A stretch of DNA of 44,798 nt, taken from contig SLSZ01000135.1 of NCBI GenBank assembly GCA_007130125.1, positions 1-44,798 on the forward strand. The letters run 5' to 3'. Below, in pieces: positions 12,956-40,841 of the stretch (position 1 is its first letter; every line of letters starts with the position of its first letter). The DNA is from Bacteroidales bacterium. GTDB lineage: Bacteria; Bacteroidota; Bacteroidia; Bacteroidales; UBA7960. The notes under the pieces are model-generated. The model did no database searches and was not told where the DNA came from. It saw nothing but the letters and a program-made list of their open reading frames with translations. Both the position numbers and the translations under genes were made by a program.

Positions 12956-12994
12956 AAAAAAGAGGGCAGTAGTATTTATATTGCCCTCTTTTTT
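12956..12994. terminator. Bidirectional rho-independent terminator
   Basis: AAAAAAGAGGGCA (12956-12968) pairs with TGCCCTCTTTTTT (12982-12994), a perfect 13-bp stem with a 13-nt loop. The A-run on one side and T-run on the other make it work on both strands. It sits between the convergent S41 peptidase (+) and AbgT transporter (-) genes. Confidence 0.9.
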
Positions 12995-13023
12995 TAATAA
13001 ACCTGTTCTAGAATAGTGTTAAT

Positions 13024-21434: not shown

Positions 21435-22349
21435 ATGCAGATGAAGCGAATACTAATCATATACTACACCCAATCCGGCCAATTGAAACAAATTTCCGAC
21501 TCTGTGGCCGGGCCATTGATGTCGGAAAATGACATTGTCGTGGATTACTATCGTATTAAGCCGGTAGAAGATTACCCTTTCCCGTGGCCATCGGATGAGT
21601 TTTTTGACTGTATGCCCGAGTCGGTGGAGAAGGTGCCCGTAGAACTTGATTTGTCAGATTTTCCTGCAAACAATAATTATGACCTTGTAATATTGTCTTA
21701 CCAGGTTTGGTACCTTTCGCCGGCAATTCCTGTCACTTCGTTTTTAAAGAGTGATGTTGCCAAAGAGTTCCTTAACGGGAAAAAAGTTGTCACACTGCTG
21801 GGTGTGCGAAACATGTGGGTAGTGGCACAGGAGTACGTTAAAGAAAAGCTTATACAAAATCATGCAAAGGTGGTAGGTAATATTGTATTATCAGATAAGT
21901 CGCATAACCTGGTATCAGTCTTGACAATTATAAAGTGGCTTATGGGAGGTAATAAGGGGCCTTACAGTTTTCTTCCCGAGGCCGGTGTATCTGAAAAAGA
22001 CATCAGAAATGCTGCAGTTTTTGCCCGGCCAATAAAGCAAGCTCTAAAAAACAATGATTACGGCAGTTTACAAAAAGAGCTGGTAGCTTTGGACGGTGTT
22101 AGAGTTAAGTACCATCTGATGCAAATGGAGAAAAATGCTTTCAGGATATTCAGGATATGGGCAAAGCTAATCCGCAAAAAAGGCGAAGCAAAAAACAAAA
22201 AACGGCTGGTACGCGTAAGGTTATTTAAGTATTACCTGTTGTTTGTGATCTTTGTATTGTCACCTGTAGCGTCGTTGGTGTTTCATGTTAAAAGGTTTGT
22301 GATGTTTAAGAGGGCGAAGAAGCAACTAAATTATTATATGGGATATTAG
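21435..22349 (+). CDS. darA: DarA-like dialkylresorcinol-forming enzyme
   Basis: 304 aa, close to the usual length of DarA proteins of Bacteroidota. The N-terminal two thirds resemble a flavodoxin-like fold (RILIIYYTQSGQLKQI with the phosphate-binding loop at about residues 11-17, then YDLVILSYQVWYLSPAIP). A basic hydrophobic segment follows near residues 264-285 (YYLLFVIFVLSPVASLVF), suggesting membrane association. DarA acts with the ketosynthase DarB to condense and aromatise two fatty-acid-derived units to a 2,5-dialkylresorcinol. DarB is encoded 1.1 kb downstream, past an antisense aldo/keto reductase. The name is from recognised sequence patterns, not a database search. Confidence 0.75.
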   Translation: MQMKRILIIYYTQSGQLKQISDSVAGPLMSENDIVVDYYRIKPVEDYPFPWPSDEFFDCMPESVEKVPVELDLSDFPANNNYDLVILSYQVWYLSPAIPVTSFLKSDVAKEFLNGKKVVTLLGVRNMWVVAQEYVKEKLIQNHAKVVGNIVLSDKSHNLVSVLTIIKWLMGGNKGPYSFLPEAGVSEKDIRNAAVFARPIKQALKNNDYGSLQKELVALDGVRVKYHLMQMEKNAFRIFRIWAKLIRKKGEAKNKKRLVRVRLFKYYLLFVIFVLSPVASLVFHVKRFVMFKRAKKQLNYYMGY

Positions 22350-23308: not shown

Positions 23309-23465
23309 GCTTGTAAATTTTTTTCTCTAAAGTAGTTGATTTTTTTAAAAAATAGACATATTTTCTTCTGTTTATCAGCGAGCTTCAACTTATGATTGCA
23401 CAATTCAAATTATTTCTTTTTCTTTGCATTTTTTAAATAATACTTTTTATTCTACTAACCGAAAG

Positions 23466-24617
23466 ATGTCAGACATAAATAACAGAGCAGTTTATATTAC
23501 CCGGTTATCAAAATTTTTGCCGAATGATCCTGTAATGAATGATGAGATGGAGGATTTTATAGGTCAGATCAAGGGACAGAAATCACGTTCAAAAAGTATT
23601 ATACTTAGAAGCAATGGCATAAAAAGCCGGTATTATGCACTTGACAAAAACGGTAAGTCAACCCACACAAACTATGAGCTTACTTATGAGGCTATAAAAG
23701 GTTTGATTGGTAACGGTTTTACTTTAAAAGATATTGATTTGTTATCATGTGGCACTACATCGCCCGATCAGATGCTTCCTTCACATGCCTCAATGGTACA
23801 GGGCAAATTGGGTTGCAATTCTATAGAAGTAATTTCACCTGCCGGCTCGTGCAATTCCGGTATGCTGGCATTGAAATACGGTTATCTCTCGGTATTGGCT
23901 GGCATGTCAAAAAATGCGGTATGTTCAGGATCAGAAAAGATATCCACCTGGATACAATCCAAAAATTTCGGCGAAGAGGCCGAACGGCTTGAACAGCTTG
24001 GTAAAAACCCATATCTCGCTTTTGAGAAAGAGTTCCTGAGATGGATGCTTTCTGATGGAGCTGCTGCGGTGCTGTTGCAGAAAGAACCAAACCTGGATGA
24101 GTTATCTCTTAAGATAGACTGGATTGAGATCAAATCGTATGCTAATGAAGCAGATACCTGCATGTGTGCCGGTGCGGTGCAAAAAGAAAACGGTGAATTG
24201 ATACCATGGCGTGATCTTTCCCAGCAAGAGCAAATGAATAGTTCGGTGTTTACCTTAAGGCAGGATACACGGATCCTTGAAAAAAACATTACAAGGTTCG
24301 GGGCAAAATTTTTGGTTGAAGTATCTGAAAAACATAGTTTCAATCCCTCAGAGACAGACTATTTTTTGCCACACATGTCATCAGAGTTCTTTCGTAAGAT
24401 AATACAGAAAGATTCGCTGGATCATGGAGTAGAAATACCCGAAGAAAAGTGGTTCACCAATCTTCATAAAGTTGGTAATGTCGGCTCTGCCTCTGCCTTC
24501 CTTATGCTTGAAGAGCTTTATAATAGCGGAAAATTAAAAGCCGGTGAAAAGATCCTAATCATGGTACCCGAAAGTGCCAGGTTTTCATATGCATATATGC
24601 ATTTAACTGTTGTGTAA
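23466..24617 (+). CDS. darB: DarB-like beta-ketosynthase (KAS III type)
   Basis: 383 aa from the ATG at 23466; an upstream TTG at 23424 lies in a promoter-like T-rich stretch and adds no domain. It is a FabH-like thiolase-fold ketosynthase with the full Cys-His-Asn triad: C129 in AGSCNSG, H303 in LPHMSS and N338 in KVGNVGSAS. StlD/DarB-type enzymes condense a beta-ketoacyl and an acyl thioester and cyclise the product toward dialkylresorcinol. This would supply the alcohol half of a flexirubin. It is followed 2 bp later by a small gene of unknown function, which suggests co-transcription. Confidence 0.85.
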   Translation: MSDINNRAVYITRLSKFLPNDPVMNDEMEDFIGQIKGQKSRSKSIILRSNGIKSRYYALDKNGKSTHTNYELTYEAIKGLIGNGFTLKDIDLLSCGTTSPDQMLPSHASMVQGKLGCNSIEVISPAGSCNSGMLALKYGYLSVLAGMSKNAVCSGSEKISTWIQSKNFGEEAERLEQLGKNPYLAFEKEFLRWMLSDGAAAVLLQKEPNLDELSLKIDWIEIKSYANEADTCMCAGAVQKENGELIPWRDLSQQEQMNSSVFTLRQDTRILEKNITRFGAKFLVEVSEKHSFNPSETDYFLPHMSSEFFRKIIQKDSLDHGVEIPEEKWFTNLHKVGNVGSASAFLMLEELYNSGKLKAGEKILIMVPESARFSYAYMHLTVV

Positions 24618-24619
24618 TT

Positions 24620-25021
24620 ATGAAAAAGAAAGAGGTTCCTCAAGACGATGCCAACTTGCTTGAAGGCAAAACCCGTGAACTGCAATATGCAGTTGATGAA
24701 AAAGGAAACTATACTATTGTAAAAAGTGTTGGATGGGAACCGAAAAATATTGTGCTGCAACAAACCTGGGAGGAGATAAACGAAAAACTGGAGCAGGTGA
24801 GAGAACAGGTGAAAGCCGGCAAATATAGTCCGCTGTATTATCACATGAAAAAACACCTTTTAACCAAAAGGATGTTGGCAAAATATGCCGGAATTAGTGT
24901 TTTTAAAGTGTGGTTTCATCTGAAGCCGAAAAGTTATGCGAAGCTCAGCAAAGAGAATATAGAAAAATATAAAAAAGCTCTGAATTTGAAGCCGGAGGAG
25001 GATTTGGGGAATGTTGATTAG
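24620..25021 (+). CDS. Small protein with a predicted C-terminal helix-turn-helix
   Basis: 133 aa. The N-terminal half is acidic (ELQYAVDEKGNYTIVKSVGW) and the middle is a helical linker (EINEKLEQVREQVKAG). The C-terminal part (KRMLAKYAGISVFKVWFHLK, then LSKENIEKYKKALNL) has the spacing of an XRE-like helix-turn-helix. It starts 2 bp after the darB stop, so it is probably a co-expressed local regulator or an accessory protein of the pigment locus. The family is not recognised by name; the helix-turn-helix assignment is inferred from the pattern only. Confidence 0.6.
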   Translation: MKKKEVPQDDANLLEGKTRELQYAVDEKGNYTIVKSVGWEPKNIVLQQTWEEINEKLEQVREQVKAGKYSPLYYHMKKHLLTKRMLAKYAGISVFKVWFHLKPKSYAKLSKENIEKYKKALNLKPEEDLGNVD

Positions 25022-25211: not shown

Positions 25212-26228
25212 ATGAAGATAGATTACCAACATAAAATGGCAGCTCATTGCGAGAACGGTGCCATAATGAGCCTTTTAAACCACCATGGCATTAAGCTAAG
25301 TGAAGCTATGATCTTTGGTATAGGTTCGGGAATATATTTTTCTCATATACCAATTATTAAGCTTAACGGATTGCCTTTGACTTCATTCAGGCCATGGCCG
25401 GGAGCGATTTTTAAAAGGGCTTCAAAAGCATTGGGCATTGATGTTGAAGTGAAAAAGTTTCGGAATCCTGAAAAGGCAATGGTTGCACTTGATGATAATC
25501 TTGAAAGGGGAATACCAACAGGCATGGTTGTTGGAGTGTTTTACCTGGATTATTTTCCGGCTCCTTACAGATTTCATTTTAATGCGCATAATATAATAGG
25601 CGTAGGCAAAGAGAACGGGAATTATATTATTAGCGATCCAATTATGGAGTCGTTTGAACATCTTTCTTATGATAGTTTGAAGAAAGTGCGTTTCGCACAG
25701 GGGCTGCAAGCACCAAGAGGAAAAATGTATTACATAAAAAACCTGCCAAATGAAATTAATATTAAGGTAGCAATTATAAAAGGCCTAAAGCGTACGGTAA
25801 GGGAGATGGTGATTCTTCCCGGGCCGGTTATAGGTGCAAGGGGAATAAAATACTTGTCAAAAAAAGTAAGAAAATACCCAAAAAGATATTCACCCAGGGA
25901 GGCATCAAAGCGGTTAGGTCAGATTGTTCGAATGCAGGAGGAGATTGGTACGGGAGGGGCAGGATTTAGATTTTTGTTTGCTGCTTTTCTGCAAGAAGCA
26001 TCTGAGATCCTTGAAAATAAAAGGCTGAATGAGCTGTCGGCCAGTATGACCGAAATTGGAGATATGTGGCGTGACTTTGCAGTACATGCCGGAAGGATCA
26101 TAAAAGAAAGAAATGAAGTTGAGACCTATGATAGTATAGCGAATTTGTTGCTGGATATTTCAGCAAAGGAAAATATAGTATATAAGGAGCTGGCAAAAGT
26201 GGTGAAAGAGGAGAGTTTGAAGGCGTAG
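25212..26228 (+). CDS. BtrH-like acyltransferase (BtrH_N plus DUF4872)
   Basis: 338 aa. Residues 1-150 resemble the BtrH N-terminal domain, a papain-like fold with candidate active-site residues C13 (AAHCENGAIMSLL), H126 (HFNAHNIIGVG) and D142 (ISDPIM). The rest fits DUF4872 (the helical part from about 180 to 330). BtrH in butirosin biosynthesis moves an acyl group from an acyl carrier protein to an amine of the aminoglycoside. In a locus with an aryl-polyene ACP and a dialkylresorcinol pathway, this protein is a candidate for forming the ester bond of the flexirubin. That role is inference. No signal peptide was seen, so it is cytoplasmic. Confidence 0.75.
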   Translation: MKIDYQHKMAAHCENGAIMSLLNHHGIKLSEAMIFGIGSGIYFSHIPIIKLNGLPLTSFRPWPGAIFKRASKALGIDVEVKKFRNPEKAMVALDDNLERGIPTGMVVGVFYLDYFPAPYRFHFNAHNIIGVGKENGNYIISDPIMESFEHLSYDSLKKVRFAQGLQAPRGKMYYIKNLPNEINIKVAIIKGLKRTVREMVILPGPVIGARGIKYLSKKVRKYPKRYSPREASKRLGQIVRMQEEIGTGGAGFRFLFAAFLQEASEILENKRLNELSASMTEIGDMWRDFAVHAGRIIKERNEVETYDSIANLLLDISAKENIVYKELAKVVKEESLKA

Positions 26229-26296: not shown

Positions 26297-26351
26297 AACA
26301 ACTCAACCTATCAATCAATCAACCAAAAAAACGTTGGTAATAAATAAATTT

Positions 26352-27107
26352 ATGGAAAATAACGTTTTAATAGAGATCAACAATTTAAGTAAAACTTATC
26401 TTAAAGGCAGGGACCCTGCGCTTGATAAGCTTAATCTTGATATTTACAACGGGGAGATCTTTGGTTTGCTGGGTCCGAATGGAGCAGGAAAAACAACTAC
26501 AATTTCAATATTGTGTAATTTGATCAAGTCCACCGAAGGTAGTTGCAGTATAAAAGGCTTTGACGTTCACAAAGAATTTAGGTTTGTAAAACCTTTCATT
26601 GGAGTAGTTTCACAGGATATTGCTTTATACCAGCTGCTAACGCCATATGAAAACCTTGTATATTTTGGCAGCATGTTTGACCTGCCAAAAAAAGAATTAA
26701 AGGAAAGAATTGATTACTTCCTTGAGAAAATGGGGCTATACAAGGTAAAAAATGAAAAGATTAAGCATTTTTCGGGAGGTATGAAGCGCCGGGTAAACCT
26801 TATTGCCGGCATTTTGCATGATCCCAGGCTTGTATTTCTTGATGAACCTACAGTAGGAATAGATGTGCAATCAAGAATGGTTATACTTGACTATTTGAAT
26901 GAGCTCAATAAGGAGGGAGTTACTTTGCTGTACTCATCACATATGCTGGATGAGGCAGAAAAACTTTGTACGAGGATTGCAATAATTGATTATGGTAAAC
27001 TGCTGACTGTCGGAACACCGGAAGAACTTATAACTGAATACAACAGCAATTGCAAAAACCTTGAAGATGTGTTCCTGCATCTGACCGGAAGACATGTGAG
27101 GGATTAA
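26352..27107 (+). CDS. ABC transporter ATP-binding protein
   Basis: 251 aa from the ATG at 26352; an upstream TTG at 26334 is not needed. Walker A is GPNGAGKTT (residues 41-49), the signature is HFSGGMKRR (139-147), and Walker B is LVFLDEPTVG with D164 and E165. The switch region YSSHMLDEAEKL follows. It resembles the CcmA/DrrA-type ATPases of ABC-2 exporters and pairs with the permease 78 bp downstream. In this locus it probably exports a pigment precursor or lipid, or assists envelope delivery, but the substrate is not visible. Confidence 0.93.
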   Translation: MENNVLIEINNLSKTYLKGRDPALDKLNLDIYNGEIFGLLGPNGAGKTTTISILCNLIKSTEGSCSIKGFDVHKEFRFVKPFIGVVSQDIALYQLLTPYENLVYFGSMFDLPKKELKERIDYFLEKMGLYKVKNEKIKHFSGGMKRRVNLIAGILHDPRLVFLDEPTVGIDVQSRMVILDYLNELNKEGVTLLYSSHMLDEAEKLCTRIAIIDYGKLLTVGTPEELITEYNSNCKNLEDVFLHLTGRHVRD

Positions 27108-27185: not shown

Positions 27186-28460
27186 ATGAGAAAACTTCTT
27201 GCATCAATACAAAAAGAGTATCGTATACTGATTCGCGATTTTGAGGGTCTGGCGCTTATGTTTGTCATGCCCCTGGTTTTAGTGTTTGTAATTACCATTC
27301 TGCAGGAAAAGACATACCAGACCATCAATGAAACCAGGGTACCTGTTGTATTGATCGACAATGATATGGACTCTGTTGGAACAGCATTCACGCATGGAGT
27401 AAAGAGCAACGGCTTTTTTGAGGTTACAGTTATTCAGAATGCTGATTCGGCGGAAATGGCAAAAGCTCGTGATGATGTTGCAAGTGGTAAATATCAAATG
27501 GGGATTATAGTTCCTGAAGGTACTACTAAATCAATCAGAAACCGGGTAGTTGCATTAGTGCAGGAGCAGGTGCCGGCTATGATGAATGTGGATACTACAG
27601 GTTTGAAAAAGTCCGTTCAGGTTGACTTGTTCTTTGATCCTATTACTAAAGACTCTTTCAGAAGTATTATCAAAAGCAACTTAAGGGAATTCAGCTCAAA
27701 GATAGAAACGCGTATTGTGTTTATTACTTATAGCAGAATAATAGATGCTATGATGAATCAATCAACATATTTGCAATATCCTGAAGAGGCGGTTATAGAG
27801 TTTGATGAAAGTTATATTTGCGAGTTTGGGCAGCAGGATGCTCCCAGCTCAGTTCAGCATAACGTACCTGCATGGACATTGTTTGCAATGTTTTTTATTT
27901 GTATACCTTTGGCCGGAAATATTATAAAAGAGCGTTATGACGGTTGCCTTGACAGGCTCAAAACCATGCCTGTTTCCTATTTGACGGTAACATTCAGTAA
28001 GCTTCTGATGTTTCTCGTAGTTACTATGATGCAGGCAGCAGTTATAGTAATGGTCGGCATTTGGGTTATTCCGCTGGCAGATGTTCAACCACTGCAGTTG
28101 GGAAGCAATATTGCAGGTTTTGTTTTTATGACAGTCTCTGCCGGTCTGGCTGCTACCGGCTATGGTATAATGATCGGTACAATTGCAAAATCATATATGC
28201 AGGCATCAACATTCGGTGCTGTTTCAACAGTGATATTGGCTGCTTTGGGAGGTGTATGGATCCCATTATACGTTATGAGCCCGGCAATGAGGCAAATCAG
28301 CCAACTATCCCCTATGAACTGGGGTATACAGGGATATTATGAGTATTTCCTGAGAGATGCTGCATTTGTAAATATTTTTCCATATGCATTCAAACTTCTA
28401 TTGTTTTTTGTTGTTTGCCTTTTAGTTGCATATTTTTATAAAAAGTATCAAAAAGTATAG
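27186..28460 (+). CDS. ABC-2 type transporter permease
   Basis: 424-aa integral membrane protein. The first membrane segment is at about residues 20-40 (LMFVMPLVLVFVITILQ), then comes a long extracytoplasmic loop of about 180 residues, then five C-terminal membrane segments ending near residue 420. This is the ABC2_membrane_3/YhhJ-like pattern. It works with the ATPase encoded just upstream. The next gene (thioesterase) starts 2 nt after its stop, so the pair is in one operon with the pigment genes. Confidence 0.92.
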   Translation: MRKLLASIQKEYRILIRDFEGLALMFVMPLVLVFVITILQEKTYQTINETRVPVVLIDNDMDSVGTAFTHGVKSNGFFEVTVIQNADSAEMAKARDDVASGKYQMGIIVPEGTTKSIRNRVVALVQEQVPAMMNVDTTGLKKSVQVDLFFDPITKDSFRSIIKSNLREFSSKIETRIVFITYSRIIDAMMNQSTYLQYPEEAVIEFDESYICEFGQQDAPSSVQHNVPAWTLFAMFFICIPLAGNIIKERYDGCLDRLKTMPVSYLTVTFSKLLMFLVVTMMQAAVIVMVGIWVIPLADVQPLQLGSNIAGFVFMTVSAGLAATGYGIMIGTIAKSYMQASTFGAVSTVILAALGGVWIPLYVMSPAMRQISQLSPMNWGIQGYYEYFLRDAAFVNIFPYAFKLLLFFVVCLLVAYFYKKYQKV

Positions 28461-28462: not shown

Positions 28463-28891
28463 TTGACAAAAAAAAAACAACTTATTAACAGAACAGAGAT
28501 TGTAGTCAGGTTCAGCGAAGTTGACTCGATGGGAATTGTTTGGCATGGCCATTATATAAAATTCTTTGAAGACGGAAGGGAAGCTTTCGGCAAGGAACAT
28601 AATATCGGGTATTTGGATATTTATGATAAAGGGTATTTAGCGCCTGTAGTAAAAGTCAATTGCGACTTTAAGCGGTATGTTAAATATGGTGATGCAATTA
28701 TTGTTGAGACTGAGTTCATAAATACAAAAGCAGCTAAAATTGTTTTTAAATTCAAGATCTTTAACAAAAGAAACGACGAGTTAGTTGCCGAGGGAGAAAG
28801 CATACAGGTGTTTACAATGCCTAATGGAGAGCTGGTGCTTACTAATCCCCCGTTTTTTGAAGCATGGAAAAAGGAAAAAGGATTTGTGTGA
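28463..28891 (+). CDS. Acyl-CoA/ACP thioesterase, 4HBT hotdog family
   Basis: 142 aa. The 4-hydroxybenzoyl-CoA thioesterase pattern D-x2-G-x-V-x4-Y-x5-G-R is complete (D21 in FSEVDSMGIVWHGHY, followed by FFEDGRE). The only start that keeps the domain is a TTG at 28463, since the first ATG lies inside the motif. The start is 2 nt after the permease stop and its codons 3-5 lie in a run of ten A (28468-28477). It could release or edit acyl-thioester intermediates during polyene synthesis. It overlaps the next gene by one base (TGATG), suggesting coupled translation. Confidence 0.88.
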   Translation: MTKKKQLINRTEIVVRFSEVDSMGIVWHGHYIKFFEDGREAFGKEHNIGYLDIYDKGYLAPVVKVNCDFKRYVKYGDAIIVETEFINTKAAKIVFKFKIFNKRNDELVAEGESIQVFTMPNGELVLTNPPFFEAWKKEKGFV

Positions 28892-30015
28892 TGAGCAAAA
28901 GAGTAGACATAGTATCAGATCATTTGATTTCTGCTTTGGGTAGCGGTTCAGAAGAAAATTTCAACAAACTGCTGAATAATCGGACAGGCATTACTATGCA
29001 TAATAACGGCAAGTATTCCGATAACATGTTGCCTTTAGGCTCAATTAACGATGAGTGGCTTTCTCAATGGGCTTATAATAATGAACTACCTGAAGGTTTC
29101 ACACGATTTGAAAAGCTTTCTATCTTGTCAATCTCTGAAGCTTTAAAAGACACTTCAATTGATATTTCTTCAGAAGACACGTTGCTGGTTCTTTCGACTA
29201 CAAAGGGAAATGTTGATTTGATAGAGTATCCTGAAATGCATAACAAGCTTGATCTGTGGTATTCGGCCCATCAGATCGCCGGTTATTTTAAAGCCAAAAA
29301 CCGCCCGAGGCTTATATCCAATGCTTGTATTTCAGGTGTTGTAGCTCTTATGTATGCCCAATGGCAGCTTAAGGAAGGCAGATATAAACACGCTGTTGTT
29401 GTGGGTGCTGATACGTTATCAAAGTTTGTTGTCAGCGGTTTTGAATCTTTCATGTCACTTAGCTCTGAAATATGTAAGCCCTTTGATAAAAACCGCGATG
29501 GTTTGACAATTGGCGAAGCAGCAGCAACCATGGTATTAAGTACCCAGGAAAAAGGGAAAGTAAGTATAGTTAAAGGAGCAACGGCAAATGATGCTAATCA
29601 TATAAGTGGTCCGTCGCGCACAGGCGAAGGACTTTTCCAGGCTATAAAACATACACTCGATAATGAAGACATTCAAATAGACTTCATTTCAGCTCACGGC
29701 ACAGCAACACCCTACAATGACGATATGGAGTCGATAGCAATTACCAGAAGCGGATTGAACAATGTGCCCGTAAACGGATTTAAAGGTTATGTCGGGCATA
29801 CCCTCGGTGCTGCCGGAATAGTGGAGGTAATTTACTCATTGTGGTCAATGTATCACAATAAGATAATAAAGACTTTTGGATATAATGAGTTTGGTGTTGT
29901 TGAAAAAGTTAATATAATAGATAGAAATATCACAAAAGAACTGAATAATGTTTTAAAAACCGCATCCGGCTTTGGAGGATGCAATTCAGCCTTATTACTC
30001 AAGAAAAATGGATAA
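28891..30015 (+). CDS. Beta-ketoacyl-ACP synthase (FabF-like, APE-type)
   Basis: 374 aa from the ATG at 28891, which overlaps the thioesterase stop as TGATG; an in-frame ATG at 28864 would add nine residues inside the thioesterase gene. The Cys-His-His triad is complete: C146 in SNACISG, H269 in SAHGTATPYND and H303 in YVGHTLGAAG. It is one of two intact FabF-like ketosynthases in the locus. It should extend the polyene chain by decarboxylative condensation with malonyl-ACP. The next gene starts inside it (30008). Confidence 0.88.
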   Translation: MSKRVDIVSDHLISALGSGSEENFNKLLNNRTGITMHNNGKYSDNMLPLGSINDEWLSQWAYNNELPEGFTRFEKLSILSISEALKDTSIDISSEDTLLVLSTTKGNVDLIEYPEMHNKLDLWYSAHQIAGYFKAKNRPRLISNACISGVVALMYAQWQLKEGRYKHAVVVGADTLSKFVVSGFESFMSLSSEICKPFDKNRDGLTIGEAAATMVLSTQEKGKVSIVKGATANDANHISGPSRTGEGLFQAIKHTLDNEDIQIDFISAHGTATPYNDDMESIAITRSGLNNVPVNGFKGYVGHTLGAAGIVEVIYSLWSMYHNKIIKTFGYNEFGVVEKVNIIDRNITKELNNVLKTASGFGGCNSALLLKKNG

Positions 30016-30616
30016 TTGGAGTATTATAAACAGTGTGGAAATAAACAATGGCAAAGTGTTTGCCAATGGCCGGCTTGTACATGACACTGAAAATGATTTT
30101 ACACTAGCTTCAAAAGAGCTGTACAAAAAATATAGTAAAGCTTATATCAAGTTTTTTAAGATGGATGCCCTTTCGAAGCTTGGCTTTCTCACAGCCGAAA
30201 TACTTTTGAAGGATTTTAACCTTGAAAACATTGACATGAATGAAATAGCACTGGTTGTTGGAAATTCTAATGCAACAAAGGATACGGATTTGAAGTATTT
30301 GCAAACAATGAGGGAGCAACCAAGCCCGGCCGTATTTGTCTACACACTGCCTAATATTTTGGTTGGGGAAATATGTATCCGGCATGGGTTCAAAGGACAA
30401 AATGTTTTTTATATTAGTGGGAAATTTGATGAGGAAGAGTTGTATGAAAACATTGAATTGCTTATAAATAACAGCACTACTGATTATGTGATAGGCGGAT
30501 GGGTTGACTTTATAAACCCAAATGATTATAAATCCATACTTTACTTAATTGGTAAAGATTCAAAAAGTAGTAAATTTGCAATAAATAATTTAAAACGGTT
30601 AAATAATATTAAATGA
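30008..30616 (+). CDS. Half-length ketosynthase-like protein, no active-site Cys
   Basis: 202 aa. The ATG at 30008 overlaps the end of the preceding ketosynthase gene by 8 bp; an ATG at 29972 is in frame but less likely. The segment SPAVFVYTLPNILVGEICIR, then HGFKGQN, matches the N-terminal half of a ketosynthase just before its active-site Cys. The next stretch is VFYISGKFDEEEL, so Cys is absent, and the chain ends at DYVIGGWVDF with no His motifs. It is therefore not a condensing enzyme by itself. It may be a structural or chain-length partner of the adjacent ketosynthases. It is intact as an ORF, so it is not simply a frameshift remnant. Confidence 0.7.
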   Translation: MDNWSIINSVEINNGKVFANGRLVHDTENDFTLASKELYKKYSKAYIKFFKMDALSKLGFLTAEILLKDFNLENIDMNEIALVVGNSNATKDTDLKYLQTMREQPSPAVFVYTLPNILVGEICIRHGFKGQNVFYISGKFDEEELYENIELLINNSTTDYVIGGWVDFINPNDYKSILYLIGKDSKSSKFAINNLKRLNNIK

Positions 30617-30692: not shown

Positions 30693-30947
30693 ATGGACAG
30701 CTTGATCAGGCAATTAAAAGAACAAATAATTGATCATTTGAATCTTGAGGGACTCAGCCCGGATGATATAAACGAGAAGGAACCACTTTTTGGTGAGGGT
30801 TTGGGGTTAGATTCTATAGATGCACTTGAGTTAACTCTCTTGCTCGAGAGAGGATATGGCATCAAACTTGAAAACCCACAAGAAGGCAAGAAGATCTTTC
30901 AATCAGTTGAAACAATGGCGGAGTATATTCAGCATAACAAAAAATAA
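30693..30947 (+). CDS. Acyl carrier protein
   Basis: 84 aa. The phosphopantetheine attachment motif is GLGLDSIDALEL with Ser41 as the modified residue. The overall length and acidic helices fit a type II ACP. It lies between the half-ketosynthase and the second ketosynthase and should carry the growing polyene. A second ACP, common in aryl polyene loci, is not in the window. The 76-bp gap upstream has a small TTGGT-AAA-ACCAA palindrome. Confidence 0.93.
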   Translation: MDSLIRQLKEQIIDHLNLEGLSPDDINEKEPLFGEGLGLDSIDALELTLLLERGYGIKLENPQEGKKIFQSVETMAEYIQHNKK

Positions 30948-32154: not shown

Positions 32155-33213
32155 ATGGCTATTTATATAAACGGAGCACAGGCAATTTCACCACAAAATA
32201 CTTTTTTAAGTCCTGAAATACCAAAGGACCTTATAAAGTATGATGGTATGATGCAAAATGTTTTGCCTGACTTCAAAAACTATTTCAATCCTATTGAAAT
32301 GCGGCGAATGAGCAGGATAATTAAATGTAGCTCTGCTGCTGCCGCAGAGTGTATTAATGAAGCTGAGATTGACACACTCAATGCCATTGCCGTTGGTACA
32401 GGCTTGGGATGCCTTGAAGATACCGAGAAGTTCCTTAATAAAATGATCGATACTAACGAAGGTATGCTTACTCCAACTACATTCATACAATCAACACACA
32501 ATACACTCGCCGGAAAAATTGCCATAGATTATAAGTGTACCGGAGCAAATTTTACATATGCACACAAAACGATCTCCTTTGAGTCTGCCTTGCTTGAAGC
32601 TATATTGTTAATAAAAGAAGGTAATAAAAATATTCTGGTAGGCGGTGTTGATGAAATAACTCCTGAGAATTACAATCTGAGGAAACACATTGATCATTGG
32701 AAAGAGGAACCCTACAATAACTTAGATGTATGTAACTCCAACACCCCGGGCACTGTGGCCGGCGAGGGGGCTGCGTATTTTATGATTTCGGCGGACAAAA
32801 CAAAAAACACTTATGCCGAAATTAAAATGGTGGAACTTTATCACAGATCCAATGGCATTTCGGCATTATCTAAAAACTTGAATAACAGATTGCAAGATGC
32901 CGGTTTGTCATTTGATGATATTGATCTGGTTTTATTTGGATATAACGGCGACAGTATCAGTGATACTTACTATCACCAGGTAAAAGATATGATATTTGAT
33001 AACCATGTTCATGGTTATTATAAGCATTACTGCGGGGAATATGATACATCCGCCTCTTTTGGTGTGTGGATGGCAACAAGGATCATCAAGCAAAACGATG
33101 TTCCGGAAAATGTTATTCTGGGAAAAAGAAAAAAAGATAAAATAAATAATGTTTTGTTGTATAACCAGGAAAACAACAAAAACCACTCTTTTATAGTTTT
33201 ATCCGCATGTTGA
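32155..33213 (+). CDS. Chain-length-factor-like ketosynthase homolog
   Basis: 352 aa with a ketosynthase fold (MRRMSRIIKCSSAAAAECIN, and STHNTLAGKIAIDYKCTGAN before the active site). The position of the nucleophile reads FTYAHKTISFESAL, so Cys is missing. The HGTGT and GHT histidines are also replaced (LFGYNGDSISD; YKHYCGEYDTSASFG). It matches the non-catalytic chain-length-factor partners of type II systems and lies 2 bp after an intact ketosynthase. It should set polyene length in the heterodimer. The next gene overlaps it by 7 bp. Confidence 0.85.
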   Translation: MAIYINGAQAISPQNTFLSPEIPKDLIKYDGMMQNVLPDFKNYFNPIEMRRMSRIIKCSSAAAAECINEAEIDTLNAIAVGTGLGCLEDTEKFLNKMIDTNEGMLTPTTFIQSTHNTLAGKIAIDYKCTGANFTYAHKTISFESALLEAILLIKEGNKNILVGGVDEITPENYNLRKHIDHWKEEPYNNLDVCNSNTPGTVAGEGAAYFMISADKTKNTYAEIKMVELYHRSNGISALSKNLNNRLQDAGLSFDDIDLVLFGYNGDSISDTYYHQVKDMIFDNHVHGYYKHYCGEYDTSASFGVWMATRIIKQNDVPENVILGKRKKDKINNVLLYNQENNKNHSFIVLSAC

Positions 33214-33974
33214 CTTATCGTCATATTAGAATAGCCTTTATTTTAATATCCTGTATGTTGATTGCCGGGAATTTTATGTCATATATCCCAATTGCTTGCT
33301 TTTTCATTACACTGGCATTGTTTTTGTCAATATTATTTATCGGTTCTGCTTTTATCTGTAGCCAGTTTTATACTAAAGTTATTTGCCGTGACATAAGGGC
33401 ACGTAACAAAAATGTTTTCATAACATTTGATGATAGCCCTGATAAAACAGAAACACCTTTGGTCCTTGAAGTATTAAAAAAACACGATATAAAAGCAACT
33501 TTTTTTATAATTGGGGAAAAGGCTGAAGAGAATATTGAATTGGTTAAAGAAATTGCCGGGCAAGGGCATGTTTTAGGTAATCATTCATACAGCCATAAAA
33601 ATTATTTTCCCTTAAGAAGTACTAAAAAAATAATTAAAGAAATTAAAAAAACAGACAATTTAATAAATAGTGTCAGGCTATCCGAAAGAATTGTTTTCAG
33701 GCCGCCATTCGGGGTAACCAACCCCTCAATAGCAAAAGCAATAAAAAGGCTTAAAGTTTATACAATAGGATGGAGTCTTAAATCGTTTGATACCGTGACT
33801 AAAAAGAGAGAAAGGGTGCTGAAAAGATTGATAAACAGAACGAGGCCAGGCGATATCGTTCTTTTGCATGATCCGGTCAAAAATATTCATATTGTTTTGG
33901 ATAAGTACATTGAGTTTTTAAAAAAAAATAATTATAACTTTGAAACAGTAGATAAATTGCTGAGTAACGAGTGA
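33207..33974 (+). CDS. Polysaccharide deacetylase family protein (NodB fold), membrane-anchored
   Basis: 255 aa. Two hydrophobic segments (about residues 8-55) suggest membrane anchoring. The catalytic residues of carbohydrate esterase family 4 are present: D75-D76 in TFDDSPD and H126/H130 in NHSYSH (the His-x3-His metal site), then FRPPFG and VLLHDP. It overlaps the chain-length-factor gene by 7 bp, so it is part of the same transcript. In pigment loci it could remove an acetyl group from a glycosylated or otherwise modified product, but the substrate is unknown. Its 3' end runs into a short repeat module. Confidence 0.88.
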   Translation: MLTYRHIRIAFILISCMLIAGNFMSYIPIACFFITLALFLSILFIGSAFICSQFYTKVICRDIRARNKNVFITFDDSPDKTETPLVLEVLKKHDIKATFFIIGEKAEENIELVKEIAGQGHVLGNHSYSHKNYFPLRSTKKIIKEIKKTDNLINSVRLSERIVFRPPFGVTNPSIAKAIKRLKVYTIGWSLKSFDTVTKKRERVLKRLINRTRPGDIVLLHDPVKNIHIVLDKYIEFLKKNNYNFETVDKLLSNE

Positions 33975-33978
33975 CGAG
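33964..33978. repeat. Inverted copy of the third module of the 21.3-kb repeat
   Basis: GTAACGAGTGACGAG (33964-33978) matches the reverse complement of 21385-21399 at 14 of 15 positions. It covers the last codons and stop of the deacetylase gene. Confidence 0.5.
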
Positions 33979-34037
33979 AAATAATTGCTAAATTCCCGCA
34001 CTAGTTACAAGCTAACAACCACTTAACAAACCGATCT

Positions 34038-34664
34038 ATGAAGACATTTTTTGCATTATTAATTTGCTTCCTGTATGTTACTGCTTATAGCCAGTCTGAT
34101 TTCAGACCGGTAAGTGATATCGAGACTGTCGGCAGTAAACTTGACAACATGGCTAAAAGCCTTAATACAATACAAAGTGATTTTCACCAGGAAAAGTATA
34201 TGGACTTCCTGGATGTTACTCTTGAATCCAAAGGAAAGTTCTGGTTTCAGAAAGAAAACTCGCTTCGCTGGCAATATACCGAGCCATACAATTATATTGT
34301 AATAGTTAATGATGGCGTTGTGCAAATAAGTGATGACGGCAGAAATCAGGAATTTCAGGTTAAAGGTAATAAGATATTTGAGCAGGTTAATAATATAATT
34401 GTTGCTTCCATGAGTGGTGATGTAATTGATAATGATGATTTTGATGTTAAGCTATTTGAAAACGATGAGTACTTCCTTGTTAAGCTAAAACCTTTAAAAA
34501 AGGATATTTCTAAGGTTATTCATGAAATGGAAATGTATTTTGATAAATCATCATTGCATATCTCCAAAATAATAATGAACGAGCCTAACAACGACTATAC
34601 TTTGATAAGATATACAAACCGGAAAATCAATGAGCCGATTCCCTCGTCAGTTTTTAGCCTTTAG
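34038..34664 (+). CDS. LolA-like outer-membrane lipoprotein carrier
   Basis: 208 aa with a signal peptide (MKTFFALLICFLYVTAYS). The LolA pattern is present: MAKSLNTIQSDFHQEKYMD, KGKFWFQKENSLRWQYTEPY and the C-terminal beta strands. Such LolA paralogs are regular members of aryl polyene loci and probably carry the hydrophobic pigment across the periplasm. The next gene, a lipoprotein, starts within its 3' end (35-bp overlap), so the two are translated together. It is unlikely to be the housekeeping LolA. Confidence 0.88.
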   Translation: MKTFFALLICFLYVTAYSQSDFRPVSDIETVGSKLDNMAKSLNTIQSDFHQEKYMDFLDVTLESKGKFWFQKENSLRWQYTEPYNYIVIVNDGVVQISDDGRNQEFQVKGNKIFEQVNNIIVASMSGDVIDNDDFDVKLFENDEYFLVKLKPLKKDISKVIHEMEMYFDKSSLHISKIIMNEPNNDYTLIRYTNRKINEPIPSSVFSL

Positions 34665-35250
34665 TATCATTTCTTTTTTGCTTTTCTCTTGCCAAACACA
34701 TAAACTTATTTGGGAAGAAGAACAACCCGGCCCTGGTATATCTGCACCACTGCAATTAGAGAAAGGCGACAGGGCTATGTACAAAGCAAACTTAGAAGTG
34801 TTCAGGAACAATCTAAGCGGTGTGTTTGTTATTCTAAACGCTGACAGCCTCTATAAAGTTGGATTTGTCTCTGAAATGGGAGTGAAGTTTTTTGACATGA
34901 AAATAGATGAGGATGGCTATGAAGTTGTTTACTGTATGGAGGCAATTAACAGAAAACCCTTGTTGAACAGTATTGCAAGAAGTTTGCAATACATCCTCGA
35001 AGACCCGGGAAAACATGATGGAAGCTTTTATGCTACAAAAAGCAATGATACAATTTATAAGCTTGCAGACAATGATGGCTGGAAACGAAAATATTTTGTT
35101 GAAAGCGGCAGGGTTAAAAGAATTGAAGCAAAGAAGCTGATACGCAACAGAGTTTTTCTCAATGCCGGCTATAATAATAAAAACCAACCTGAAAATATTA
35201 TATTTTTGCAAAGAGGGATAAGGATGAGAATAGAAATGAATAAACTTTAA
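34630..35250 (+). CDS. Small lipoprotein of the pigment locus
   Basis: 206 aa. Lipobox LLFSC with Cys21 as the predicted acylated residue, then a beta-rich body of unknown family (MYKANLEVFRNNLSGVFVIL, and FYATKSNDTIYKLADNDGW). Its gene starts 35 bp inside the LolA-like gene. The position suggests an outer-membrane receptor partner of the LolA-like carrier, comparable in role to LolB or to the DUF3261 lipoproteins of proteobacterial aryl polyene loci. That role is inference; no family match is claimed. Confidence 0.7.
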   Translation: MSRFPRQFLAFSIISFLLFSCQTHKLIWEEEQPGPGISAPLQLEKGDRAMYKANLEVFRNNLSGVFVILNADSLYKVGFVSEMGVKFFDMKIDEDGYEVVYCMEAINRKPLLNSIARSLQYILEDPGKHDGSFYATKSNDTIYKLADNDGWKRKYFVESGRVKRIEAKKLIRNRVFLNAGYNNKNQPENIIFLQRGIRMRIEMNKL

Positions 35251-35261
35251 AAAGAAGCTGA

Positions 35262-35285
35262 CAGTTGACAACAGGCAGTTGGCAA
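35262..35285. repeat. Short direct repeat between pigment genes
   Basis: CAGTTGACAA (35262-35271) and CAGTTGGCAA (35276-35285) repeat with one mismatch in a 59-bp gap. It is the same style of word repeat seen in the other gaps of this locus. Confidence 0.45.
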
Positions 35286-35309
35286 ATTGCTGTAATATAT
35301 TAAATACAA

Positions 35310-35684
35310 ATGTTGAAAAGTGATTTTTATAAAATATTAAATAAAGAGCATACTGAAGGAGAGATTGTTTATAAAATAAAATTAAACCCGTCTCATCCGG
35401 TTTACGTGGGACATTTCCCTGATGTACCTGTAACTCCTGGTGTATGCCAGGTTGCTATTGTAAAAGAATGTCTTGAAGATGCCCTGAATAAGACGTTGTT
35501 TTTGAAAAACTCAAAAGATATTAAGTTTGCCGGACTGAACAACCCCGTGGAGAAGGATGAGTTAATAATAAAAATATCTTATGGCTTGCTGGAAGACGGT
35601 TTATATAAAATCAACGCAACAATAATTGATGACCAGGAAAATACGGTTTTAAAATTGAGAGGTGAATTTGGTGACCAGTTATAA
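35310..35684 (+). CDS. ApeI/FabZ-like 3-hydroxyacyl-ACP dehydratase
   Basis: 124-aa hotdog-fold protein. The FabZ-type motif is clear, with H35 in the segment HPVYVGHFPDVPVTPGV and a nearby Glu (VAIVKECLE). It should remove water from 3-hydroxyacyl-ACP to create the double bonds of the polyene. Aryl polyene loci use an ApeI/ApeP pair; only this one is present here. The downstream glycosyltransferase gene begins inside this gene (23-bp overlap from a GTG). Confidence 0.88.
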   Translation: MLKSDFYKILNKEHTEGEIVYKIKLNPSHPVYVGHFPDVPVTPGVCQVAIVKECLEDALNKTLFLKNSKDIKFAGLNNPVEKDELIIKISYGLLEDGLYKINATIIDDQENTVLKLRGEFGDQL

Positions 35685-36834
35685 ACTTCAACAAAAATTT
35701 GATTCTCTTAAGTGTTGTGTCATTATACCTACCTATAATAATGAATCAACATTGCCGGGTGTAATAAAAGGTGTTTTGAAATTTACATCCAATGTAATTG
35801 TTGTAAATGATGGTTCCACGGATTCAACTAATGAAATAGTTTCAGGATTTCCCCAGGTAACCTATGTTTCTCATAATAAGAACAGGGGTAAAGGTATAGC
35901 TTTGCGTACAGGGTTTTCTGAAGCTATTAAAATGGGATATGATTATGCTATTACCATTGATTCTGACGGACAACATATGCCCGGAGATATTCCGAAATTT
36001 ATTGATGCCCTGGAGAAAAACCCTGGTGCTTTGATTGTAGGAGCACGTAATATGGATCAAAAAAGCGTACCTGCAAAAAGTTCTTTCGGGCATAAGTTCA
36101 GCAACTTCTGGTATTACGTGGAAACCGGAATAAAACTCCCTGATACTCAAACAGGTTACAGGCTCTACCCCGTAAAGAAACTCAGCAATATGCGCTTTTA
36201 TACCGAAAAATTTGAGTTTGAGATAGAGGTGCTTGTCAGGGCAACATGGAAGGGTGTGCCGGTTAATTATGTACCTGTGGATGTATATTATGCACCGAAA
36301 AACGAACGTGTATCTCACTTCAGGCCTGTCAGGGATTTTGCAAGAGTCTCACTGCTGAATACCTGGTTGGTTATTTTAGCTATTTTCTATTATCGCCCTC
36401 TTTTTGTATGGAGAGATATTAGAAAAAAAGGATTTGCTGAGGTTATTGGCAGAAATGAAAGCAACCACAAGCTGGCTGCTGCTATTGGTTTTGGCGTGAT
36501 GATGGGTATAGTGCCAATATGGGGCTACCAAACTGTAACAGCCTTGTTTCTGGCACATCTGCTAAGGTTGAACAAACTGATTGTGTTCTGGTCATGCAAC
36601 ATCAGCTTGCCACCAGTTATGCCTTTCATTTTGTATTTAAGCTTTAAAACAGGTGAACTTTTTGTCGCAAACCCTATTGTGCTTTCGTTTAACCCCGACT
36701 TATCAGTACAATCATTTACTATCGGGCTTAAACAGTACATTATTGGTGCTATCATATTTGCAATAGTTGCTGCCGCGGCAGCTTTTGTTATTTCTTTTTT
36801 ATTGCTTTCTTTGCGGAAGATTATAAAGAGATAA
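35662..36834 (+). CDS. GT2 glycosyltransferase with C-terminal DUF2062
   Basis: 390 aa. Residues about 17-240 form a GT-A glycosyltransferase family 2 domain (VVNDGSTDST, the metal-binding DSD at about 100-102 in TIDSDGQHMPGD, and a DTQTGYRLYP block). Residues about 265-390 form DUF2062 with several membrane helices (AAIGFGVMMGIVPIWGYQTV). The same two-domain protein is common in aryl polyene and flexirubin loci. The start is a GTG at 35662, or possibly the GTG at 35671. It could glycosylate a lipid or the pigment head group; the acceptor is unknown. Confidence 0.9.
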   Translation: MNLVTSYKLQQKFDSLKCCVIIPTYNNESTLPGVIKGVLKFTSNVIVVNDGSTDSTNEIVSGFPQVTYVSHNKNRGKGIALRTGFSEAIKMGYDYAITIDSDGQHMPGDIPKFIDALEKNPGALIVGARNMDQKSVPAKSSFGHKFSNFWYYVETGIKLPDTQTGYRLYPVKKLSNMRFYTEKFEFEIEVLVRATWKGVPVNYVPVDVYYAPKNERVSHFRPVRDFARVSLLNTWLVILAIFYYRPLFVWRDIRKKGFAEVIGRNESNHKLAAAIGFGVMMGIVPIWGYQTVTALFLAHLLRLNKLIVFWSCNISLPPVMPFILYLSFKTGELFVANPIVLSFNPDLSVQSFTIGLKQYIIGAIIFAIVAAAAAFVISFLLLSLRKIIKR

Positions 36835-36942
36835 ATAATTAATGATCAACGGAACATTTTCTTTATTTTAAAATTTGTACGAGGCTATAGATGGCAATAT
36901 CCCACATGTATTTTGTTTATGGCTTTTAAAATTTGGAAATTA

Positions 36943-39900
36943 ATGAGTAAGCTTTTTGTTGCAATATACACTTTCATTCGAAGGTTCAGAGTTATATTTC
37001 TTCTGGCAGTGATTGCTTTTGCTGTGTTTGCAACATTTAACATCAGGAATATTACATTATTCGATGATTTTAGTGCTGTTTTTCCCCAGAGTGACAAAAT
37101 TGAAATTTATAACGAAGTAATATCAAACTCGACAATCCTCGAACAGATAGTATTTAATGTTTACCAGAAGGATACCTTGCAGGAAGCTGATCCGGCACAA
37201 TTAACATCTGTTGCTGCTCAACTTGCCGACAGCATTGATTATTACCTTAAGCCTGATTATGTGAGGTCAATTACATCGGGTGTCGATGATCAACTATTCT
37301 TTGAAGCCTTTGAATTGTTTTATCAGTACCTGCCTTTTTATCTTGATAGTGCTGATTATCGAATGCTTGATAGTCTTATTACCTATGAAGGTATTGAAGC
37401 CAAGCTTGAAGAGAACCTGAGATCATTGATGTCACCAGTGTCAGTTGTTACACGTGATTTTTTACTACAGGATCCATTACATATTGTTTTGCCTAAGCTT
37501 GAAGTTTTGAAAGATGTCCAATTGGAGGAAGGGCTTGAGTTATACAATAACTACCTGGTTACTGAAGATAAACGTAATGCTTTATTCTTTGTGCTACCCC
37601 ATGATACGCACAGTACAGCGGAAAACGAATATTTTGTCAATGAGTTGGAAAGGATTACCGGCAATTTTGAAAAGACTTACCCTGACATAAAAATCAGCTT
37701 TTACGGTTCAGTGCCGGTTGCAATTGCCAATACCCGGCAGATAAAGGATGATATTAAGCTTACAGTGTCAATAGCCTTAGTACTGCTGGTTTTCTTAATG
37801 CTTTTCTTTTTCCAGCGGATTCAGAACATTTTGCTGATTTTTTTCCCTGCCGCTGTCGGAGGTGTTTTAGCATTGTTCTTTTTTGCTGTATTTAAACCTG
37901 AAATATCGGCTTTGTCACTTGCAATAGGTTCAGTGCTGCTGGGAATCACCATTGACTTTTCTTTACATTTCCTTACACACCATAAGCACTCCGGCTCATC
38001 AAAAAAGACACTTAAAGCTATATCCGAGCCTGTTTTAATGAGTGGTTTTACAACAACAACAGCTTTCTTATGCCTGTTATTTATTACATCACCGGCTTTG
38101 CAAGACCTTGGTATATTTGCATCAGTTGCCGTTATGGGGGCAGCATTAGGTGCGTTGGTTTTTTTGCCACATATGGTAAATGATAAAAAGGTGCCAGGTA
38201 AAAAGCTTTATCGCCACACTATAATTGAGAAAGCTGCTGCTTTTGAACTGCATGCAGTTAAACCCCTGGTAATTGCCATATTGCTTATATCTGCATTTTT
38301 GTTGTATTTTGCACAATATACAAGCTTTGAAGAAGATCTGGAAAAGTCGGGTTACCTTTCGGAAGAGCTGGCTGAAGCTGATGAAAGGTTGAAAAAGATC
38401 TCCGATATAACCGAAACGACAATATATGTCATAGCTGAAGGAGAAACACTGGATGAATGCCTCCAGCATAACAGGGAGATCGTTAATGAGCTGCAACACC
38501 TGCAAAGTGAAAGTGTTTTCGAATCTTATTATTCAGTATCACGAATTATTCCTTCAGAAAAATTACAACAAGAAAAAATTGAGAAGTGGAATGACTTTTG
38601 GACAGATGAGAAGATTAGTAAAGCTAAATCTATTATGCGTGAAGCAGGAGGAAAGCTTCATTTCAACGAAAAAGCCTACCGGGGATTTTTCCGGATGATA
38701 GAAAAGGATTATGAAATTTTACCGCCGCACACTATTGCTAAAAAGCTGGGGCTTATAACTGAGAACTTTATCATTCACACACCAAGCCGTGTGATGGTTG
38801 CAAATCTGATAAAAGCCGATACTGACGAAATATCGGATGCTATTAAAGAGCATCTGGCCAAAAAAGAAAATACTCTCGTATTTGATAAAAAATCATTAGC
38901 TGAAAGTCTTTTTGATATTCTTAAACATGATTTCAACAGATTTATAGCGGCTTCTCTCGTAGTAGTTTTTTTGATTATACTGATATTTTTCGGCAGGATC
39001 GAACTGGCAATAATTACTTTCCTGCCGATGGCGCTAAGCTGGGGTTGGACTATCGGTATAATGGGCTTATTTGATATTAAGTTCAATATTTTTAATGTCG
39101 TTATTTCGGCATTTATTTTTGGGTTGGGGGTTGATTATTCAATATTTATTTCAAAAGGATTATTACAAAAGCATAAGTTTGGGGCTGACAATATCATTTC
39201 CTATAAAAGCTCAATATTATTGTCATGCCTCAGTACATTGATAGGGGTTGGTGTTTTGATATTTGCAAAACATCCTGCATTAAAATCAATAGCATTACTT
39301 TCTCTTATAGGTATAAGTTCCGTTGTGTTAATTGCATTTACATTACAACCGTTTTTGTTTGATAAAGCTTTTTATTATAAGGGTAAGCCACGTAAGAATC
39401 CGGTGAATCTTTATCAGTTTATGGTATCATCATTGGGTTTCTTTTCTTTTGGTGTAGTTGCCCTGTTTTTATCTGCATTAGTGCCGTTTTTTAAGGTATT
39501 CCCGGCAAAAAAAGTAAGGAAGAGGGCAGCTTATAAACGGCTGATATGCTCGGCTTGCAAGGTTATTATTTCAATTTCATGGTTTTATAGCCCCAAGAGA
39601 TCGTTCGAACTTGATAAAAGCACTTTTGACAAATCGTCAATTATAATATCCAACCACCAGTCTGTAATGGACTTGTTGTTATATCTGTCACTTTCGCCAA
39701 AAATAGTCATGCTTGTAAAAGATTGGGTCTGGAACAATTTTTATTTCGGGCGGGTTGTCAGATATGCCGGCTTTATCAATGTTGAAGAAGAATATAAAGA
39801 GACGTTACCTGCCCTGCAAAAAGCGCTTGATGATGGTAATTCAATACTGATTTTTCCCGAGGGTACAAGGACAAGAACGGGTAAGATCAGGAGATTTCAT

Positions 39901-40797
39901 AAAGGAGCTTTTTACTTTGCCGAACAGCTAAAAGCTGATATTACCGCAATACTTCTGCACGGTTATTATGAAGTGCTTCCGGCAGGTACTTTTATACTTG
40001 ATCCCTATCCTGTAAATGTTCGTCTGCTTGGAAGGTTTAGGTATGATGAGCTTGGAGACAATTACTCTGTGAGAGCAAAAGCAATGTGCAGGCTCTATCG
40101 TAAAGAATATAGAAAGTTGTTTGAAACGGAAAGGAGGACATTTTTCTACAAAACTGAACTCATTAACAAGTACAAGTTTAAAGGCCCTGTTATTGAATAT
40201 TATGTTAAAATAAAGCTTAGACTGGAAAATAATTACGAACTGTATGATGAAATTATACCGCGCAGCGCAAAAATCTTTGATGCCGGTTGTGGATATGGAA
40301 TGCTCACAAATATGCTGTCGCTCACAGGAAAGGATCGATATATCAAAGGAGTTGATTATGATAGAGAAAAAATAGAATTTGCTAAGAATACAGTATCTTT
40401 TGATCAGAAAAATATTGATTTTGAATGTGTTGATATTGCAGAATATGAGCCTGAATATTATGATGTTTTTATACTATTCGATGTGCTGCATTACATACCT
40501 GAAAGCTCGCAAAAAGCAGTTATTGAAAAATTTATTGCAAAGCTTAACCAGTCCGGCATGATCATTATTAGGGAAGGGAATAAAGACATCAAAAGCAAAC
40601 ATTTTATGACACGCGTCTCCGAGTTTTTCTCCACTGGTCTGGGATTTAACAAAGCAAAAGCCAAGCTTTCGTTTATTTCCGGTTCACTTTTGAAAAAAAT
40701 AGCAGATGAAAATAACATGTCTTTTGAGGTCATTGCATCCGAAAAAAGAACATCGAATCAGGTATTTGTTTTTAAAAAAAATAATCAAAAAAATTGA
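36943..40797 (+). CDS. Trifunctional MMPL transporter / lysophospholipid acyltransferase / SAM methyltransferase
   Basis: 1284 aa from the ATG at 36943, which follows a purine-rich GGAAA; ATG 36919 and TTG 36913 are in frame. Residues 1 to about 850 form an RND-type MMPL exporter with two sets of membrane helices and large periplasmic loops (LFDDFSAVFPQSDKIEIYNE). Residues about 880-1085 are a PlsC-like acyltransferase with HX4D (H905-D910 in NHQSVMD) and FPEGTR (971-976). Residues about 1100-1275 are a class I methyltransferase (FDAGCGYGM, with D1113). The three activities on one chain suggest a concerted export-acylation-methylation step on the pigment or a lipid. Fusions of this type are known in Bacteroidota pigment loci. 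Confidence 0.9.
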   Translation: MSKLFVAIYTFIRRFRVIFLLAVIAFAVFATFNIRNITLFDDFSAVFPQSDKIEIYNEVISNSTILEQIVFNVYQKDTLQEADPAQLTSVAAQLADSIDYYLKPDYVRSITSGVDDQLFFEAFELFYQYLPFYLDSADYRMLDSLITYEGIEAKLEENLRSLMSPVSVVTRDFLLQDPLHIVLPKLEVLKDVQLEEGLELYNNYLVTEDKRNALFFVLPHDTHSTAENEYFVNELERITGNFEKTYPDIKISFYGSVPVAIANTRQIKDDIKLTVSIALVLLVFLMLFFFQRIQNILLIFFPAAVGGVLALFFFAVFKPEISALSLAIGSVLLGITIDFSLHFLTHHKHSGSSKKTLKAISEPVLMSGFTTTTAFLCLLFITSPALQDLGIFASVAVMGAALGALVFLPHMVNDKKVPGKKLYRHTIIEKAAAFELHAVKPLVIAILLISAFLLYFAQYTSFEEDLEKSGYLSEELAEADERLKKISDITETTIYVIAEGETLDECLQHNREIVNELQHLQSESVFESYYSVSRIIPSEKLQQEKIEKWNDFWTDEKISKAKSIMREAGGKLHFNEKAYRGFFRMIEKDYEILPPHTIAKKLGLITENFIIHTPSRVMVANLIKADTDEISDAIKEHLAKKENTLVFDKKSLAESLFDILKHDFNRFIAASLVVVFLIILIFFGRIELAIITFLPMALSWGWTIGIMGLFDIKFNIFNVVISAFIFGLGVDYSIFISKGLLQKHKFGADNIISYKSSILLSCLSTLIGVGVLIFAKHPALKSIALLSLIGISSVVLIAFTLQPFLFDKAFYYKGKPRKNPVNLYQFMVSSLGFFSFGVVALFLSALVPFFKVFPAKKVRKRAAYKRLICSACKVIISISWFYSPKRSFELDKSTFDKSSIIISNHQSVMDLLLYLSLSPKIVMLVKDWVWNNFYFGRVVRYAGFINVEEEYKETLPALQKALDDGNSILIFPEGTRTRTGKIRRFHKGAFYFAEQLKADITAILLHGYYEVLPAGTFILDPYPVNVRLLGRFRYDELGDNYSVRAKAMCRLYRKEYRKLFETERRTFFYKTELINKYKFKGPVIEYYVKIKLRLENNYELYDEIIPRSAKIFDAGCGYGMLTNMLSLTGKDRYIKGVDYDREKIEFAKNTVSFDQKNIDFECVDIAEYEPEYYDVFILFDVLHYIPESSQKAVIEKFIAKLNQSGMIIIREGNKDIKSKHFMTRVSEFFSTGLGFNKAKAKLSFISGSLLKKIADENNMSFEVIASEKRTSNQVFVFKKNNQKN

Positions 40798-40841
40798 AAA
40801 TACACTTGTGTTAAGTTGCCTGTTTTTAATCAGTACAATAC

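Follow-up and report, generated by a model that had tools for sequence, protein, structure and literature searches.

The stretch of DNA examined here (the window) comprises 44,798 nucleotides of contig SLSZ01000135.1 from a Bacteroidales bacterium. It contains an intact open reading frame, darH, at 25212..26228 on the forward strand, which starts with ATG and encodes 338 amino acids; the coordinates are exactly those of a preliminary description of this DNA, and the homology to BtrH claimed there is borne out. Residues 12-143 match the Pfam domain BtrH_N (PF14399; 152 bits against a cut-off of 29.7, E 1.4e-44) and residues 154-327 match DUF4872 (PF16169; 178 bits). The NCBIfam equivalog NF053550, labelled 'BtrH-related acyltransferase DarH', covers residues 4-327 with 440 bits (cut-off 300). 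This match and the order of the genes around darH are far above chance. Its sequence makes it an unremarkable member of an already named family. Because NF053550 already carries the acyltransferase name, the family and the acyltransferase guess pre-date the present analysis. A literature search found no experimental paper on DarH.

The gene is placed between resorcinol and polyene genes, as described before: DarA and DarB precede it, and the polyene genes follow from 28463. All genes given here are on the forward strand unless noted. Upstream are DarA, the dialkylresorcinol aromatase/condensing protein (21435..22349; E 6e-72, 40% identity to the Flavobacterium orthologue), and DarB, the dialkylresorcinol ketosynthase (23424..24617; NF053539 565.5 bits, cut-off 550), which make the proposed acceptor of DarH, a dialkylresorcinol (DAR). 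A convergent aldo-keto reductase gene on the reverse strand (22430-23308) separates the two, and is not seen at this place in the other clusters listed. The 133-residue DarG (24620..25021; NF053536 135 bits, cut-off 70; NF053545 142 bits, cut-off 170) directly precedes DarH. Downstream, the DAR-linked module continues with an ABC transporter ATPase (26334..27107; PF00005), missing from DAR-less polyene clusters, and an ABC-2 permease (27186..28460; PF12698). These are followed by a thioesterase and two ketosynthase-like polyene-pathway genes (28463..30616; Pfam), which DAR-less polyene clusters also have, and by the acyl carrier protein that is the proposed polyene acyl donor (30693..30947; PF00550, with the motif LGLDSIDAL in its translation). 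The aryl-polyene ketosynthase (30968-32152; domain search) and its chain-length-factor-like partner (32155-33213; PF13723) come next. Profile matches and cluster comparison assign further polyene and export genes to 33207..42338, encoding a polysaccharide deacetylase, LolA2, a small lipoprotein, a dehydratase, GT2-DUF2062, an MMPL-LPLAT-methyltransferase and an FAD oxidoreductase.

Flexirubin is an orange bacterial pigment and a chemotaxonomic marker of Bacteroidota. The preliminary description had proposed that the darH product forms the ester between the polyene and the resorcinol, with co-occurrence as a check, and the distribution of the genes supports this candidacy. A scan of 297 Bacteroidota genomes gave 23 with DarH above cut-off. 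DarB passes its cut-off in these 23 and in G238, and the polyene marker PF13723 does so in the 23 and in G238, G118 and G242. The DarA search, which covered 30 of the 297 genomes, found DarA in exactly the 23 DarH genomes, all of which have DarB and PF13723. DarH is thus present in 23/23 polyene genomes with DarA and in 0/3 without it, an arrangement among 26 phylogenetically related genomes that would have a probability of 1/2600 if the genomes were independent. The one seeming exception, G238, which has DarB and polyene genes without DarH, also has no DarA and is better counted among the polyene-only genomes, as one that carries a DarB-like gene. The polyene-only clusters of G118 and G242 retain the polyene core but have none of DarA, DarB, DarG, DarH and the ABC genes. 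In 80 further named DarH loci, several of them on truncated contigs, DarB was found in 71, DarG in 71 and DarA in 69; named loci with the DAR-DarH block include Chitinophaga pinensis, Flavobacterium johnsoniae and F. psychrophilum. A plasmid search for DarH relatives gave distant matches only. The ABC permease orthologue occurs in the same 23 genomes as DarA and DarH. Since DarG and the ABC genes are distributed as DarH is, co-occurrence alone does not single out DarH.

DarH is also present in species verified as flexirubin producers, C. pinensis (strain YS-16, L197) and F. johnsoniae (strain CI04, L157), in strains that differ from the studied ones, DSM 2588 and UW101. In C. pinensis the DAR and polyene halves are encoded apart, and DarH is found with the DAR genes and not in the flx cluster. 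A related arrangement is known from the betaproteobacterium Azoarcus, in which arcuflavin is a polyene-DAR ester and the published DAR cluster includes a BtrH-like darE (PMC3949708). Compared with DarH by annotation and neighbourhood, darE (azo0290) of Azoarcus sp. BH72, annotated as a 'BtrH-like peptidase', similarly adjoins darA, darB, darD and an ABC ATPase in a producer of such an ester. For Pseudomonas chlororaphis, a maker of free dialkylresorcinol, darABC and two regulators are listed, and no BtrH (PMC6403133).

The Cys/His/Asp candidates noted earlier are Cys13, His126 and Asp142. They are conserved in 149 of 150 distinct DarH homologues, the exception being one truncated copy, and R160, E243, T247 and G249 are likewise conserved. 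An AlphaFold2 model of DarH (pLDDT 89.2, pTM 0.89) was compared with the PDB by Foldseek. Matches over nearly the full chain were AziU3/U2 (7.9e-10), CtaG (9.2e-10) and CcbD (1e-7); C39 peptidases, including the peptidase domain of PCAT1, matched the fold far more weakly. The CtaG entries include the variants C11A, H128A and D144N, so that the Cys/His/Asp order is as in DarH, with a His-Asp spacing of 16 in both proteins and a similar Cys-His spacing (117 in CtaG, 113 in DarH). A phmmer search of PDB sequences with DarH found nothing, and the DarH profile picked up only coiled-coil artefacts and, weakly, AziU3 (E 1.7). The kinship of DarH with the solved structures, as judged from the model, is therefore one of fold only, and sequence search alone falls short of it.

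The characterised relatives are amide makers or amine-acting enzymes, and none makes a phenol ester. BtrH of butirosin synthesis (PF14399) shares with DarH the BtrH_N domain, the Cys/His/Asp positions and an expected carrier-bound acyl donor. It is an ACP:aminoglycoside acyltransferase (PMC10318531), in agreement with the earlier account of BtrH as a carrier-protein-to-amine acyl mover; however, BtrH acylates an amine, and the acceptor of DarH would be a phenol. For CtaG (closthioamide), the proposed role is that of a peptidyl transferase which passes 4-hydroxybenzoate from a carrier protein on to an amine that is itself carrier-bound (PMC6772006), and the structure of CcbD (celesticetin) includes the PCP domain of CcbZ. 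Both have the overall fold of DarH over most of the chain, but at about 12-15% identity and with amines as acceptors. Together, the CtaG and CcbD fold matches and the chemistry of BtrH make carrier-protein acyltransferase the best-supported class for DarH, as far as a predicted structure can assign it. AziU3/AziU2 (azinomycin), the top Foldseek match, is a BtrH-fold enzyme in which AziU3 acts with a small partner protein; it differs in forming an aziridine with sulfate displacement instead of transferring an acyl group. Because AziU3 is an aziridine synthase, the reaction of DarH does not follow from its fold.

DarA and DarB alone yield DAR in a heterologous host (PMC3992019), and DAR-less polyene clusters do without DarH. 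DarH is thus dispensable for making either half of the pigment. Within the co-distributed set, DarH alone combines a fold of the acyl-transfer type with a catalytic triad that does not vary, and for this reason it was chosen over DarG and the ABC genes. Family, triad, fold and genomic coupling, together with the presence in producer species, make DarH the probable enzyme that joins the aryl-polyene to DAR. The preliminary description knew of no established enzyme for this step. It was right in that a literature search found no demonstrated enzyme joining the flexirubin halves; however, the name of NF053550 and a proposal for FlxW, considered below, already existed.

From these features we infer the donor, the acceptor, the chemistry, the order of steps and the export as follows. 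Asp142 would orient His126, which would activate Cys13. The Cys13 thiolate would then attack the thioester that links the polyenoyl chain to the acyl carrier protein of the pathway, giving an acyl-S-enzyme. A phenolic hydroxyl of DAR, with the papain-like N-domain on one side of it and the helical DUF4872 domain on the other, would be helped by His126 and Asp142 to accept the acyl group from Cys13 and form the flexirubin ester. The ester would reach the outer membrane by way of the adjoining ABC transporter and the MMPL and LolA genes.

Other proteins of these clusters could in principle make the ester. FlxW was proposed for this step as 'ligase-like' by Schoner et al. 2014 (PMC3992019). Since the gene order in C. 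pinensis YS-16 agrees with the published flxA-flxY functions, FlxW can be equated with the PF03417 gene, which encodes a protein of about 560 aa of the AAT (acyl-CoA:6-aminopenicillanic acid acyltransferase) type. The AAT family transfers acyl groups, and nearly all polyene genomes examined have a member of it. However, the long, FlxW-type AAT is present in the three polyene genomes without DarA (G118, G242, G238), and G099 lacks it while having DarA, DarB and DarH, a distribution that rules it out as a DAR-specific enzyme. Nor is an AAT among the listed genes of the Azoarcus arc and dar clusters, although the strain produces the ester (PMC3949708). Because the FlxW-type AAT also occurs in DAR-less polyene clusters, DarH fits the ester step better. 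On this genomic evidence FlxW appears the weaker candidate and is unlikely to form the ester; it may act with different acceptors. The lipid-type acyltransferases, Lip_A_acyltrans and the LPLAT of the MMPL fusion, also have folds used for acyl transfer and are conserved across clusters, and one of them might make the ester while DarH does something else. But they too are found in the DAR-less clusters of G118, G242 and G238, where attachment of the polyene to lipid is the more likely role, and we regard them as very improbable ester-forming enzymes.

DarH itself might not be a biosynthetic acyltransferase at all but a C39-like peptidase or hydrolase that works for the ABC transporter next to it. 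The ATPase and permease genes do adjoin darH, and C39 peptidases are among its weaker fold matches, but the matches over the full length are biosynthetic enzymes. DarH is moreover a separate protein with a DUF4872 domain, not fused to the transporter, and the neighbouring ATPase and permease have only ABC and AAA domains in Pfam, with no fused peptidase domain. In G270 and G017 the ABC genes lie elsewhere, yet DarG and DarH stay together. No obvious leader-peptide gene was seen in a non-systematic look at short open reading frames. A peptidase role for DarH is accordingly given very little weight.

A further alternative concerns the acceptor, with DarH moving the polyene acyl group to a wider set of molecules and DAR being replaced in some Bacteroidales. 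A DarH-family match was found in 49 of 295 Bacteroidales genomes, and DarA matched in 36 of these 49 DarH genomes, all tested; the match in G551 is a 22-bit partial one only. Six genomes (G406, G346, G458, G505, G590 and G551) have DarH beside polyene-pathway genes with no credible DarA or DarB, their best DarB-like score being about 116 bits where the cut-off is 450. G406 and G346 carry DarH as a tandem duplicate, and eight of the DarH copies in the six genomes form one clade (support 100) within the DAR-linked tree. Thus, DarH without DAR was seen in 0/3 DAR-less polyene genomes of the phylum sample but in six genomes of one Bacteroidales clade. Incompleteness could hide DarA and DarB in single genomes, but this is unlikely in all six, which are 93-98% complete. 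Polyene clusters with DarG, DarH and the ABC genes (L247, L248, L249, L253, L254, L257) were read in genomes without DarA and DarB, and a B12 radical-SAM gene of the TIGR04072 type occupies the usual DarAB position in the polyene clusters where this was read; in L247 it matches TIGR04072 ('rSAM_ladder_B12') with 403 bits. Since this clade keeps DarH without DarA and DarB, the acceptor would not always be DAR, and the simplest reading is that the acceptor was exchanged and the joining enzyme kept. As a replacement for the assignment of DarH to the polyene-DAR ester, a wider acceptor range is improbable.

In one of these genomes, locus L264 (G505:C23) carries at 1-6895 a distant DarB-like ketosynthase III together with radical-SAM, 3-hydroxyacyl-CoA dehydrogenase, ketosynthase, ACP and acyltransferase genes, a set that is a possible source of an alternative acceptor.

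The genome of the window also contains, at 10058-13063 of G000:C19 (L067), a paralogous operon of DarG2, DarH2, an ACP and a sulfotransferase (PF13469), after which a B12 radical-SAM gene often comes. DarG2 and DarH2 lie beside a sulfotransferase in at least 11 other Bacteroidales, and the DarH2 copies form one clade (support 99). The set recalls azinomycin AziU3/U2, which uses a sulfated intermediate.

If DarH joins the polyene to DAR, it fills the gap at the joining step of flexirubin synthesis, and would give a fold characterised as amide-forming the further ability to make phenol esters. A broader view, offered tentatively and at somewhat under even probability, is that BtrH-fold enzymes of a DarH branch use carrier-bound polyenes to make phenol esters and can exchange the acceptor, which would be DAR for flexirubin and arcuflavin and another head group in the DarAB-less Bacteroidales, and that DarH2 carries out a further reaction. 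New here are the systematic co-occurrence evidence, the recognition of FlxW as an AAT protein that fits the step less well, the resemblance in fold of DarH to CtaG, CcbD and AziU3, the DarAB-less clade, and the DarH2 operon.

DarG is almost always immediately upstream of DarH in the clusters compared, and its predicted structure has a C-terminal HTH-like helical fold. As DarG adjoins DarH even in G017, where DarA and DarB are located elsewhere, it may act with DarH as a partner or regulate it. A role like that of the small partner AziU2 was considered and set aside, the DarG model having no AziU2 fold match.

Outside Bacteroidota, DarH is carried by the Desulfobacterales MAGs L173, L178 and L183, with DarB in L173 and L178, DarA in L178, DarG in L178 and L183, and ABC genes in L173. 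These gene contents suggest polyene-DAR pigments in Desulfobacterota, contamination of the MAGs being possible. The DarB-like genes of G281, G255 and G219 were rejected as DAR cases, being fused or divergent and without DarA. In G281, G255 and G182:C12 the DarB-like frames are 617-675 aa long with a C-terminal extension; G281 and G255 have no DarA, and the G281 copy adjoins DUF6999. These extended proteins probably belong to a different pathway.
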